Shown here piece by piece: positions 486-63,204 of a stretch of 64,000 nt of DNA (position 1 is its first letter; every line of letters begins with the position of its first letter). Below the pieces are notes generated by a model. It had not been told where the DNA came from, did no database searches, and saw nothing but the letters and a program-made list of their open reading frames with translations. The translations under genes and the position numbers were made by a program. Source of the stretch: a virus; the IMG/VR virus record IMGVR_UViG_3300048580_000372, positions 1 through 64,000 of that record; one strand, given 5' to 3'.

Positions 486-522
486 AATTTGTATATTAGA
501 AAACACAGTGTTAAATAGTATT

Positions 523-1047
523 ATGGATTTTATAATAATACAACTAATAGGCATTGTGGGATTTGGATTAACTTGCATTACCCCATTATGGAAAACTACC
601 AAACATATGCTAATCGTTGGGGCATTAGCATCAATGTTATTCGTCATTCATTATCTATTATTAGGGGCATGGGCTGGAGCTGCCATTGATGTTATTTGTG
701 CCAGTCGTTGTATTTTGGCTGCATATTATCCAAAAACTTGGGTCAAGTGGACGTTCTATCTTTCACCATTCGCTATCCTATTTCTAAATCCAATAAATTT
801 GGCAAACACTTGTGTCTGTATTGCAGCACTAATTAATAGTATATCAAGTTTTAAAACTGATGCACAAACAATGAGAATAATGGATTTATCCAGTATTCCA
901 TTTTGGACTTTCTATAATTTTACTAATTTATCATATGCAGGATTAATTGCGAATTTTGTTGGTTTTGTTTCTTACAGCTATTCTATATACCATTATAGAA
1001 AATCTACTTTAATTGTTCCAAAATCTCCACAACCATCGATTCATTAA
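523..1047 (+). CDS. YgjV-type multi-span inner membrane protein
   Basis: 174 residues from the ATG at 523; an in-frame GTG at 508 would add five residues, and neither start has a clear ribosome binding site. Four or five hydrophobic helices fill nearly the whole length. The pattern (LIGIVGFGL, then HYLLLGAWAGAAIDVI and a conserved Arg in CASRC) matches the bacterial YgjV family of inner membrane proteins of about 180 residues, whose function is unknown. It sits alone on the plus strand, and its 3' end overlaps the convergent gene at 1004-1516 by 44 bases. In a phage it is likely a captured host gene that alters the envelope; that is inference. Confidence 0.65.
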   Translation: MDFIIIQLIGIVGFGLTCITPLWKTTKHMLIVGALASMLFVIHYLLLGAWAGAAIDVICASRCILAAYYPKTWVKWTFYLSPFAILFLNPINLANTCVCIAALINSISSFKTDAQTMRIMDLSSIPFWTFYNFTNLSYAGLIANFVGFVSYSYSIYHYRKSTLIVPKSPQPSIH

Positions 1048-1649: not shown

Positions 1650-1928
1650 ATGAAAAGGTTAATTTTAATATTATTTTTCATATCATCATCTGCAATGGCT
1701 GGTGAACCATTCTGCAATTATCTTGGTGATTTTTTTAATTTCATAACGCTTCAGCCATCATGTTATGAACGAATAAGAAAATATAATTATGATCATTCAG
1801 AACGTTCTGTTACTGATTTGGCTGATATTTATGGACCACACAGCCCAGAACATCCACCTGAAAATTATCATAGGGTTAAAGAAGGGTTTGGGAATGATGC
1901 TTGGGAGAAAAATAATAGAGGATGGTAA
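1650..1928 (+). CDS. Small secreted or periplasmic protein
   Basis: 92 residues. The start ATG at 1650 follows AAAAGGAG at ideal spacing. Residues 1-18 form a typical signal peptide: KR, then a hydrophobic core (LILILFF), then SSSAMA with cleavage expected before GEP. The mature part is hydrophilic, has two Cys, and is rich in His, Pro and aromatic residues. It has its own sigma70-type promoter and terminator, so it is an independent unit that could be expressed early and exported by the host. No family is recognised. Confidence 0.65.
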   Translation: MKRLILILFFISSSAMAGEPFCNYLGDFFNFITLQPSCYERIRKYNYDHSERSVTDLADIYGPHSPEHPPENYHRVKEGFGNDAWEKNNRGW

Positions 1929-1933
1929 AAAAT

Positions 1934-1960
1934 AAAAAGGGAGCCGAAGCCCCCTTTTTA
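1934..1960. terminator. Bidirectional terminator shared by the secreted protein gene and the tmRNA
   Basis: On the minus strand it reads as an 11-bp stem with a TTCG tetraloop flanked by A and T runs. On the plus strand the same stem follows the stop at 1928. It closes both converging transcripts. Confidence 0.85.
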
Positions 1961-1984
1961 TAATAATATTATTTAACAGGGAAT

Positions 1985-2255
1985 TATCATAACCCCGAAT
2001 GTTTTTGGAAAAGTTCAAGTGCTCACGCAGCTTGAAGTTCAGTTCCCATAACATAGTTGTCGTTTGAAGCGACAGTTTTAATTTTTCTCGCGGTAACCCT
2101 GCTGGAATTCGGGTGAACGCAACCTTGCGATATTCACTCCAATTACTATCCACCCCATCAAACCTAAATGTGCCCCATAAGAAATTATGGTTCGTGGAGC
2201 ACTGGGGACTTGCACCCCATTCTACAGTGGTCTTCATCTTTGTTCAAACGTCCAT
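1985..2255 (-). ncRNA. ssrA: Circularly permuted tmRNA (ssrA)
   Basis: tmRNA rescues stalled ribosomes and adds a degradation tag. Read on the minus strand, the acceptor piece comes first: a T arm (2203-2219; TGGGG, loop TGCAAGT, CCCCA), then the acceptor 3' strand GTGCTCC (2202-2196) and an A (2195). After an 18-base spacer (2194-2177) the coding piece begins with GGGGCAC (2176-2170), which pairs with GTGCTCC over seven pairs (one G-T). A D-loop-like stretch follows, then a CGCAA/TTGCG hairpin, the tag frame (2023-2070), and a hairpin (TTCAAG/CTTGAA) enclosing the tag stop. CCA is not encoded next to the discriminator base. This order is that of two-piece tmRNAs. The outer ends are estimates: the 5' end from the promoter, the 3' end not resolved. 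Confidence 0.85.
2023..2070 (-). other. tmRNA tag reading frame
   Basis: Fifteen codons and TGA read ASNDNYVMGTELQAA. The bases before the resume codon (CTGTC, then GCT) and the following AACGAC resemble the E. coli ssrA context. SNDN near the start and a terminal AA match known tmRNA tags, where the final AA is the ClpXP recognition element. The middle (VMGTELQ) differs from the usual host tags I know. Confidence 0.8.
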
Positions 2256-2261
2256 TGTGAT

Positions 2262-2290
2262 AATATACCACAAACCTATTTAGTAGTCAA
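2262..2290 (-). promoter_or_regulatory. Sigma70-type promoter of the tmRNA
   Basis: TTGACT (2290-2285), a 17-base spacer and TATATT (2267-2262). It predicts a start near 2255, just before the acceptor piece. Confidence 0.7.
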
Positions 2291-8190: not shown

Positions 8191-9207
8191 TCACGTATAT
8201 AATTGCAATCCTGTAGTTAATTTATAATTTTTATCCATTGTTGATACCTTGAATGGACTTCCCTTGGTTCGTTCTGGAAATGAAACATGAATCCATGGCA
8301 ATCTGCTTGGATATTCCAATATCATCTGCCCAAATGGTAAGCCTGAATTTTTAATTCGTTGTGCAATTTCAAAAACTTCTTGATTGGATTTTCCATTAAA
8401 ACGCAAATCAGCAGCTTGTCCATATTCATGCTGACTATTCTTACCCTGAACATTTCTAAATGCACTATTGACAACAAATTCATATCCCATTCCACGAATT
8501 GGCTCAAGAACGTTGTCACACAATTGTTTTAAATTACAAACTATTTCTGCTTCTGTTAACCCATGTTGTGCCCGCAATGGATGACTACCTGCTGGTGTTC
8601 TTATTGTCAAATCACCTAAAGTAAAATTTTGACTCAATCTTGTCGCAGATGTAAATGGTGGCACCAATCCACCACAATCTGGTGGCGGCGGGGTTGTTTG
8701 AACTGGTGGAACATCATCCTTTTGTGCAGGTGTTGCTGGTGGTGCATCTGGGTCCACACCATTAGCTTTACTTTGTTTTATTTGGGCTTCAGTTGGTGTA
8801 GCACCTTGTTTTAATGGTGGCCAAATTCGCAACCCTTGCATCTGCCCTTCATCTTCTAAATCTGCTTTATCTTTTTCTTCTTCACTTTGTGGAGGTGGCC
8901 AAGAATGATTGACGTTACAAGACATAACATTCGAACTACCACCAATAACAATTGAACTACAACCCAAAATATCACCAATTCTGGCAATGGGTTTTCCATT
9001 GACTAAAACTGTTGGGTCACCAGTTACAACATCACTAACATGGTCTGAAGTATTAGGACAGTGGGCTGGACAAGGTTCCCATGGGTCGCCTTGTCTGGTT
9101 ACTGGAAGTCCATTGACGATAACGTTTGGAGAACCAACATTACTCGATGATGTTCCCCAACAATTGTGTCCTGAATTTGGATCTGTTATACGTGTTACAC
9201 CTGGCAT
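8191..9207 (-). CDS. PAAR spike-tip protein fused to an M15-type peptidoglycan peptidase
   Basis: 338 residues. Residues 1-95 are a PAAR domain: repeated VIVNGLPVTRQGD and VLVNGKPIARIGD, with His and Cys residues that would hold the tip metal. A Pro-rich acidic linker (about 100-180) follows. Residues 185-338 match the peptidase M15 family (D-Ala-D-Ala carboxypeptidase or endolysin type): SAFRN, then SQHEYGQAADLRF with zinc ligands H260 and D267, and WIHVSF with H307. The protein would cap the tail spike and cut the cell wall during entry. In T4 the lysozyme sits on gp5 instead, so this is an alternative arrangement. Confidence 0.85.
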   Translation of the reverse strand: MPGVTRITDPNSGHNCWGTSSSNVGSPNVIVNGLPVTRQGDPWEPCPAHCPNTSDHVSDVVTGDPTVLVNGKPIARIGDILGCSSIVIGGSSNVMSCNVNHSWPPPQSEEEKDKADLEDEGQMQGLRIWPPLKQGATPTEAQIKQSKANGVDPDAPPATPAQKDDVPPVQTTPPPPDCGGLVPPFTSATRLSQNFTLGDLTIRTPAGSHPLRAQHGLTEAEIVCNLKQLCDNVLEPIRGMGYEFVVNSAFRNVQGKNSQHEYGQAADLRFNGKSNQEVFEIAQRIKNSGLPFGQMILEYPSRLPWIHVSFPERTKGSPFKVSTMDKNYKLTTGLQLYT

Positions 9208-35342: not shown

Positions 35343-36569
35343 ATGATAAATAAGGCATTCAAATTTAGACTAAAACCAACCCAAGATCAAGTAATCAAAT
35401 TGACTCAGTGGTTTGGAATAAGTCGCTTTATTTATAATTATTGTCTCCAAGAGAACATCCAATATTACCAAGAAACCAAAAAATTCCTTTTTTATAATAC
35501 TTTGGGAGTTAGATTACCAGACCTGAAAAAAATCTATCCTTGGTTATCCGATATACCAAGCCAATCTTTACAACAAAAAATGAGAGATTTCGAAAAATCA
35601 CTAAAGGCATCTTATAAACAAAAAGATGCAGGATTCCCAAAATTCAGATCAAAGCACATCGAGTCCCATAATAGTTTCCGTATTATTCAGACCAATGGAC
35701 ATATAAAACCAACAGCCAGTCATATAATCATCCCAAAATTAGGTGATGTCAAATGGAAACGTCACAGACCACTTGAGGGGAAACTAAAAAGTATAACAAT
35801 TAAAAAAGAAAATAATTATTATTGGTGTGTATGCCTTTGTGAATTACCAGATATACAACCAATACAAGAATTTACTTCTAAAAATTTGGTTGGTATTGAT
35901 GTCGGATTAACGACTTATGCTATAACCTCAGATGGAGAGGTATTTGATACACCAAAGTTTTATCGCAAGAAACAAAAGAAATTAAAGAAATTACAACGAG
36001 TTTTATCGAAAAAGAAAAAAGACTCTAAAAATAGACAAAAAGCCAAAGCGAAAGTGAATAAATTACACTATAAAATAAAAAGCCAAAGACTTGACTTCAT
36101 TCATCAGATAAGTAGTTCGATAACCAAGAATTATTTATTTGTAGGAATTGAGGATCTGAATCTAAAAGGAATGAGTAAATTATATGGTAAGTCAGTAACT
36201 GACCAGTCATTTAATATGTTCTTCCAACAATTAACATATAAAAGTTTATGGAATGGTGGGGCAACGATAAAGATTAATCGTTGGGCACCATCCAGTAAAA
36301 CTTGTTCCCATTGTGGTAATGTCAAAGAAAAACTGTCATTATCAGAAAGAACTTATGTGTGTTCAGAGTGTGGGTTGGTAATTGATAGAGATGCCAATGC
36401 AACCATTAATATTAAAAAATGGGCATTGGCTGAACTAATGAATAGGTATGGAACATACCAAATTAAAGCCTGTGGAGATACCTCTGATGGGATAGAGAAA
36501 TCTATTAGTCAAGTATCGTTGAATCAGGAAAAGTTCCCTCTTATTGTAGAGGGAAGCCCAGTCCTTTAG
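35343..36569 (+). CDS. tnpB: TnpB RNA-guided nuclease of an IS200/IS605-type element
   Basis: 408 residues, full length for TnpB. The N-terminal helical wedge domain begins FKFRLKPTQDQ. The RuvC-like nuclease carries D186 (GIDVGLTTYA), E270 (VGIEDLNLKG) and D350 (DRDANATINI), and a four-Cys zinc finger lies at 321-343 (CSHC, CSEC), so all known catalytic parts are present. TnpB cuts DNA guided by the omega RNA encoded at its 3' end. No tnpA (Y1 transposase) is beside it, so movement would depend on a transposase elsewhere. Confidence 0.92.
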   Translation: MINKAFKFRLKPTQDQVIKLTQWFGISRFIYNYCLQENIQYYQETKKFLFYNTLGVRLPDLKKIYPWLSDIPSQSLQQKMRDFEKSLKASYKQKDAGFPKFRSKHIESHNSFRIIQTNGHIKPTASHIIIPKLGDVKWKRHRPLEGKLKSITIKKENNYYWCVCLCELPDIQPIQEFTSKNLVGIDVGLTTYAITSDGEVFDTPKFYRKKQKKLKKLQRVLSKKKKDSKNRQKAKAKVNKLHYKIKSQRLDFIHQISSSITKNYLFVGIEDLNLKGMSKLYGKSVTDQSFNMFFQQLTYKSLWNGGATIKINRWAPSSKTCSHCGNVKEKLSLSERTYVCSECGLVIDRDANATINIKKWALAELMNRYGTYQIKACGDTSDGIEKSISQVSLNQEKFPLIVEGSPVL

Positions 36570-62361: not shown

Positions 62362-63204
62362 TTAACGGTACTCAACCTTCGTCACTGTGTATGGATACTT
62401 AGCTTCGTCATAAAACTTCTTTCTTTCAGATAAGTGTTTCTTGGAGTATTTAGTAGATGCAGTAATATCAAAAATGTTCGCGAAGTCTTTATCACTCGAC
62501 ATTCTAATACTTCTACCAATACTTTGAATAACCTTGATAAAACTTTTACCAGCTTCAACCATAACCAAATTAAATATTCGAGGAATATTAATACCAGTGC
62601 TACAAGTACCAAATGTTGCAATCAAAATTTCATTATTCGAATTATTAACTTCTTCAAAATGCTCCCTGCGTTTTTTATTCTTTGTGGCACCTTGAATAAA
62701 GATAGTATCTTTGGTTATATATTCAACCAACTTTTCACCTGTTTCAATTCTATCAATTAAAACCAAAGTATTCCCTGTATTGGACACTTCTTCAATAAAA
62801 TTAGCCAACCAACGAACCCTTGTTTCATCTGTAACCAAGAACCTATATTCGTCTGCATATTCTTTATAAGAAACATGGTCTTTAGTTTGAATAATATCAA
62901 TATGCAAATTAGCCAACACACCTTGGTCCTGCAATTCATGAGCTTTCAACGTATTAACAATTGGACCAATACAAAACAACAAACACAAAGAATCTATTTC
63001 ATCTTTTGGAATTGTTCCTGTAAATCCCCAACGAATTGGAATATTGGCAAATGGACCAGTCAAAAGTTCTTGCAATTTATCTGCTTTTGTGGTGTGACAA
63101 TTGGCGACAATAGCATCATCAACTATATAATTGTGATCATTTTTAATATGAAGATTATACACCTCATTTGGCTTTTCTATTTCTTTTCTTTTTACAAGCT
63201 TCAT
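62362..63204 (-). CDS. uvsW: Split intein C half plus C-terminal part of a UvsW-type helicase
   Basis: 280 residues. Residues 1-35 are an intein C domain: EVYNLHIKNDHNYIVDDAIVAN, with N35 and then C36 as the +1 residue; the penultimate residue is Ala instead of the usual His. From C36 it reads CHTTKADKLQELL, which completes a DE(C)H-type Walker B box, then GFTGT (motif III), LVLIDRIETGEKL (IV), ATFGTCSTGINIPR (V) and QSIGRSIR (VI) of superfamily 2 helicases such as UvsW, which acts on branched DNA in recombination and replication. The N-terminal helicase part with Walker A must lie beyond 64000. Confidence 0.88.
   Translation of the reverse strand: MKLVKRKEIEKPNEVYNLHIKNDHNYIVDDAIVANCHTTKADKLQELLTGPFANIPIRWGFTGTIPKDEIDSLCLLFCIGPIVNTLKAHELQDQGVLANLHIDIIQTKDHVSYKEYADEYRFLVTDETRVRWLANFIEEVSNTGNTLVLIDRIETGEKLVEYITKDTIFIQGATKNKKRREHFEEVNNSNNEILIATFGTCSTGINIPRIFNLVMVEAGKSFIKVIQSIGRSIRMSSDKDFANIFDITASTKYSKKHLSERKKFYDEAKYPYTVTKVEYR

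Follow-up and report, generated by a model that had tools for sequence, protein, structure and literature searches.

Two-piece tmRNAs are already known from bacteriophages. A 2022 survey of phage tmRNAs counted 133 distinct structures, 53 of them two-piece (PMC9004378), tmRNAs have been noted in huge phages (PMC7162821), and PMC11242549 lists one for the Sinorhizobium jumbo phage AP-J-162, a relative of Atu_ph07, and none for Atu_ph07 itself. The merged alpha, beta and cyano models make up the Rfam family RF04321, tmRNA_permuted (PMC11915505). The gene described here is a divergent member of this known class; with these reports and eight more permuted genes found in this work, the view of the initial annotation that such a tmRNA would be unusual in a phage is not supported. 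It shares with RF04321 the gene order, the pairing of acceptor stem and T arm, the D-loop analogue and the tag frame, and differs from it in a score of 46.1 bits (curated cut-off, 47 bits), in CGA in place of CCA, and in a tag that ends in QAA. The copy that we found in Sinorhizobium phage Phosso belongs to a related jumbo lineage and has the same PAAR/tail-region synteny and a UUCG terminator, whereas it scores 113 bits, encodes CCA, contains an intervening sequence of 410 nt and specifies the tag ANDNVSTKVALAA. Melnitz (a Methylophilales phage) and HTVC008M (a Pelagibacter phage) also carry permuted tmRNAs, but they are smaller marine phages, with the tags ANDNYVPVDYALAA and ANFNEYALAA, respectively. 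A glutamine riboswitch has been reported in Melnitz, whereas an Rfam scan of the window at curated cut-offs reported no family.

The window, i.e., the whole stretch of DNA analyzed here, corresponds to the initial 64 kb of a viral contig of 73.8 kb. The contig encodes UvsX, a gp32-like SSB, a DnaB-type helicase, a primase, a UvsW-like helicase, an exonuclease and tail-type proteins, and most likely represents part of the genome of a T4-like jumbo phage. Its UvsX is 61.5% identical to that of Phosso (469 kb) and 59.3% identical to that of Agrobacterium phage Atu_ph07 (490 kb); its DnaB is about 46% identical to those of the same two phages and 48% to that of Pseudomonas phage PA5oct. The initial annotation had suggested that the two-piece form points to the host. 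The closest named relatives do include rhizobial, and hence alphaproteobacterial, jumbo phages (Phosso and Atu_ph07), and an alphaproteobacterial host is likely, though no more than that, given this similarity together with the permuted form of the tmRNA. The assignment does not draw on the UvsX tree, in which the phage of the window sits on a long branch without strong support, and a search for relatives through the neighboring methyltransferase returned none. Elsewhere in the window, a transposase-family gene lies at 35343-36569 on the plus strand (phrog_506, E 2.8e-112), and the PAAR protein encoded at 8191-9207 on the minus strand greatly exceeds those of relatives in length and has a weak match to M15 peptidase on its C-terminal side; it is perhaps a spike tip fused to a peptidase. 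The UvsW-like helicase gene is broken (window 62362-63204, minus strand, and contig 63164-64108 and 64143-65192) into an N-terminal half ending in the N part of an intein, a separate ORF with a NUMOD3 motif, and a C-terminal half starting with the C part of an intein, an arrangement suggestive of a split intein into which a homing endonuclease gene has been inserted.

The circularly permuted tmRNA gene occupies about 2255-1932 of the window, on the minus strand. ARAGORN calls a permuted tmRNA at this locus, and 200 Markov shuffles of the window, 12.8 Mb in all, yielded no tmRNA call. RF04321 covers the whole element with an E-value of 5.1e-8 for a 551-base query and of 1.6e-9 with the whole contig as target, and the alpha_tmRNA model gives a partial alignment to the locus at 17.5 bits (E 9.3e-5). 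Together, these E-values and the absence of calls in the shuffles exclude a chance match. In the comparison with Rfam models proposed in the initial annotation, the RF04321 bit score is 0.9 under the curated cut-off. RF04321 describes the tRNA domain only, and in the mRNA-like part of the window gene pseudoknots were not recognized. At the nucleotide level, blastn of the locus against phages gave short matches only, mostly to the terminator end or at chance level, and searches of viral contigs with exact DNA patterns of the T arm and tag, or with a gapped permuted-gene pattern, found no close copy. We consider, with a probability of roughly 0.9, that this locus is a phage-encoded permuted tmRNA (ssrA) served by a sigma70-type promoter and an intrinsic terminator of its own, and that it belongs to a T4-like jumbo phage from the group related to Phosso and Atu_ph07 whose host is probably alphaproteobacterial. 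The sequence itself shows the permuted order, covariation in the acceptor stem, which contains the alanine identity pair, as well as the T arm, a tag frame that stays open, the stop hairpin and synteny with related phages.

On the minus strand the order of elements is promoter, acceptor half, 15-nt intervening sequence, 5' acceptor strand, tag frame, stop hairpin and terminator, so that the acceptor half does precede the coding half, as had been proposed. The candidate promoter (2262-2290) reads TTGACT-17 nt-TATATT, with TG before the second hexamer; it is a consensus match with the 17-base spacer originally noted. The acceptor piece (2192-2255, its 5' end at 2255 placed from the promoter) starts with a 5' flank and a strand of helix P2 (about 2230-2223). 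It continues with the T arm TGGGG-TGCAAGT-CCCCA (2219-2203), of five pairs and a 7-base loop, which directly abuts the acceptor 3' strand GTGCTCC (2202-2196), exactly as first described; discriminator A73 (2195) and CGA (2194-2192) follow. The 15 nt between this CGA and the GGGG of the next element (2177-2191) would be expected to be removed, by analogy with processing in the known family. The tRNA-like 5' part (2150-2176) comprises the acceptor strand GGGGCAC (2176-2170), the D-loop analogue AGGTTTGAT and the other P2 strand, and GGGGCAC forms all seven of the proposed pairs with GTGCTCC, including G3-U70. The tag reading frame, VASNDNYVMGTELQAA-stop, runs over 2023-2073, and its TGA (2025-2023) lies in the loop of a predicted hairpin, TTCAAG(c)TGC-GTGA-GCACTTGAA (2014-2036), in agreement with the earlier description of a stop within a hairpin. 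The intrinsic terminator, a UUCG loop with a T run, is present as claimed, at 1932-1961, which places it outside the boundary at 1985 that the gene had been given.

Permuted tmRNAs were also found in other phages. RF04321 scored above its cut-off in Phosso and Melnitz (113 bits each), HTVC008M (91 bits), a 60 kb viral contig (115 bits), a 6 kb contig found by pattern (92 bits), and the 435, 182 and 232 kb contigs found as UvsX relatives (89, 97 and 109 bits). These three are all of the UvsX-relative contigs above 150 kb; one contig of 115 kb lacks the gene, and most UvsX relatives come from contigs of less than 10 kb, so short that the absence of a tmRNA says nothing. In Atu_ph07 and the gammaproteobacterial jumbo phages tested with RF04321 there was no match, or matches of at most 18 bits, below the cut-off, at loci that ARAGORN identifies as ordinary tRNAs. 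The Phosso gene (PV764938, 349596-350198) is missing from the annotation of its record, and ARAGORN made no call on the Phosso, 435 kb or 232 kb copies. Within the intervening sequence of the Phosso gene, stretches such as CCCCATCATAACAACATG and its reverse complement recur.

The window gene, those of Phosso, Melnitz and HTVC008M, and those of the five viral contigs (6, 60, 182, 232 and 435 kb) were compared as a set of nine. The acceptor stem has 7/7 pairs in all nine, which answers the concern that its pairing might not be conserved in related phages; both strands vary at positions 4-7 while still pairing, and the alanine identity pair, G3-U70, does not vary. Given an alignment that took in the window gene, with intervening sequences cut out beforehand and no structure supplied, RNAalifold returned exactly the T stem and the acceptor stem, with compensatory changes in 7 of the 12 pairs. 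When the two pieces were cofolded without constraints, the acceptor stem, T arm and stop hairpin all formed, although the minimum-energy form is without the P2 of the Rfam model. In our interpretation of the RF04321 alignment, the P2 helix of the window gene has one mismatch.

The tag of the window gene is VASNDNYVMGTELQAA, and the first codon is probably GTC rather than GCT. In E. coli tmRNA, A86, four bases before the first codon, sets the frame (PMC2481249); an A four bases upstream of GTC fits this rule and GCT does not. The 435 kb relative has the same AACT-GTC context. The alternative starts would give ASNDN... or SNDN..., and since all candidates share one frame the LQAA end is independent of the choice. 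The ssrA-like context that had been described for the tag stands as regards its frame, Ala-Ala end and stop hairpin, with the first codon probably moved from the earlier GCT to GTC. The middle of the tag, VMGTELQ, had been singled out as its oddity; in comparison with the relatives the odd part is instead the QAA end, found in this tag only, as the other eight end in LAA. We read those as ANDNVSTKVALAA (Phosso), VNDNDVVEALAA (435 kb contig) and ANDDYFYQEVKLAA (232 kb contig) from their own sequences, and as ANDNNVSFEGLALAA, ANESYALAA, ANFNEYALAA, ANDNYVPVDYALAA and ANDENFALAA in the remainder. Recognition by ClpXP depends above all on the terminal Ala-Ala, with a modest contribution from the third-last residue (PMC7652416). 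With the final Ala-Ala, the main ClpXP signal, intact, degradation of tagged proteins is likely kept, and the altered degradation put forward in the initial annotation is speculation.

It is nevertheless conceivable, as an addition to the main reading and not in place of it, that the QAA-ended tag evolved to slow degradation while keeping ribosome rescue. The lone departure from LAA among nine tags would fit, as would the modest rise in KM on changing the third-last residue with E. coli ClpXP (PMC7652416). We think this improbable, with terminal Ala-Ala intact, the E. coli effect modest, and the idea built on a single sequence in a comparison made up of phage tags, host adaptors and the host tag lying outside it. 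A slightly longer shot still is the fuller proposal that the jumbo-phage tmRNA, conserved beside the tail-spike region, has been retuned in this phage, needing CCA addition and slowing proteolysis through its QAA tag; if true, this would allow ribosome recycling without losing tagged phage proteins.

The divergence of the window gene could also be taken as decay, leaving an RNA that no longer performs trans-translation, or as a decoy that inhibits trans-translation by the host. Its 46.1 bits are far below the 89-115 bits of the relatives, it encodes CGA after discriminator A where the eight relatives encode CCA, and its T loop, TGCAAGT, is unusual in having G at position 55. A tag-less tmRNA from phage DS6A inhibits the endogenous tmRNA when expressed in E. 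coli (PMC11915505). However, the acceptor stem, G3-U70, T stem, open tag frame, stop hairpin, promoter and terminator of the window gene are all intact, and a tag frame is present, unlike in DS6A. In addition, the T loop variant, in combination with a TTTGA motif, is common to the window gene and HTVC008M. For these reasons we rate decay or a decoy role as improbable. The TGCAA T loop with G at position 55 was also seen in one-piece tmRNAs, mostly of Patescibacteria, in a genome scan for this loop together with GCTCCAC; the scan returned 42 stretches, with no permuted tmRNA where ARAGORN made a call, and no host.

tmRNA genes are common integration sites (PMC11915505), and one may ask whether this locus is the ssrA of the host, either where host DNA meets phage DNA or in a chimeric contig. 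The gene is 2 kb away from the end of the contig, and a neighboring gene for an Imp-YgjV family inner membrane protein (508-1047, plus strand) has no counterpart in 50,697 phage records or in 21 related ones. Against this, the search for a phage integrase found none, GC is uniform, and the gene has the same position in the related phages. The window and three relatives have a PAAR baseplate gene upstream of the tmRNA and in the same orientation, at approximately 0.05 kb (435 kb contig), 0.6 kb (Phosso), 6.0 kb (232 kb contig) and 6.7 kb (window); the PAAR gene of the 182 kb contig is 37 kb away. Further genes of the window, at 9.5-20.7 kb, have matches in these regions of Phosso and the 435 kb contig; for the 232 kb contig there is one such match. 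Promoter-like sites are found just upstream of the tmRNA in the 435 kb contig (TTGACA-17-TATATT) and the 232 kb contig (TTTACA-16-TATCAT), and terminators follow it in Phosso (UUCG) and the 232 kb contig (another loop). The shared position downstream of PAAR/tail-region genes in the window, Phosso and the 435 and 232 kb contigs indicates that the tmRNA gene is the phage's own and makes a host origin very unlikely; together with the promoter and terminator sites, it supports the original proposal of a permuted tmRNA that is encoded by the phage and flanked by a promoter and a terminator of its own. Finally, an open frame of 146 codons (1797-2237, minus strand) spans tmRNA and terminator, but the chance that the region is a protein gene is negligible, as this frame has no Pfam match and crosses the T arm, acceptor stem and terminator into an opposite-strand ORF (1650-1928), and all conserved features are RNA features.

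By analogy with the known family, the permuted tmRNA of this phage would be cut from its precursor by host tRNA-processing enzymes, CCA would be added, since it is not encoded, and host AlaRS would charge the acceptor piece. SmpB was not found in ten phage records (the phage of the window and relatives), so that the tmRNA would depend on the host for function: host SmpB would bring it, during infection, to ribosomes that have stalled on non-stop mRNA. Addition of the tag would then serve rescue and, via its terminal Ala-Ala, proteolysis. The likely benefit is that ribosomes are kept available during infection; PMC9004378 proposes either that the hijacked machinery is maintained in this way or that host proteins are recycled.

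The new points are modest: the gene is syntenic across jumbo phages, its Phosso copy had gone unannotated, and the window contributes a divergent member whose tag ends in QAA. These findings show that the permuted tmRNA recurs in synteny in several related jumbo phages and is not a one-off capture, and that annotation overlooks it, as in the Phosso record and in the three copies on which ARAGORN is silent. With the gene located in Phosso, ribosome rescue during jumbo-phage infection becomes testable in a cultured system, Phosso on Sinorhizobium.
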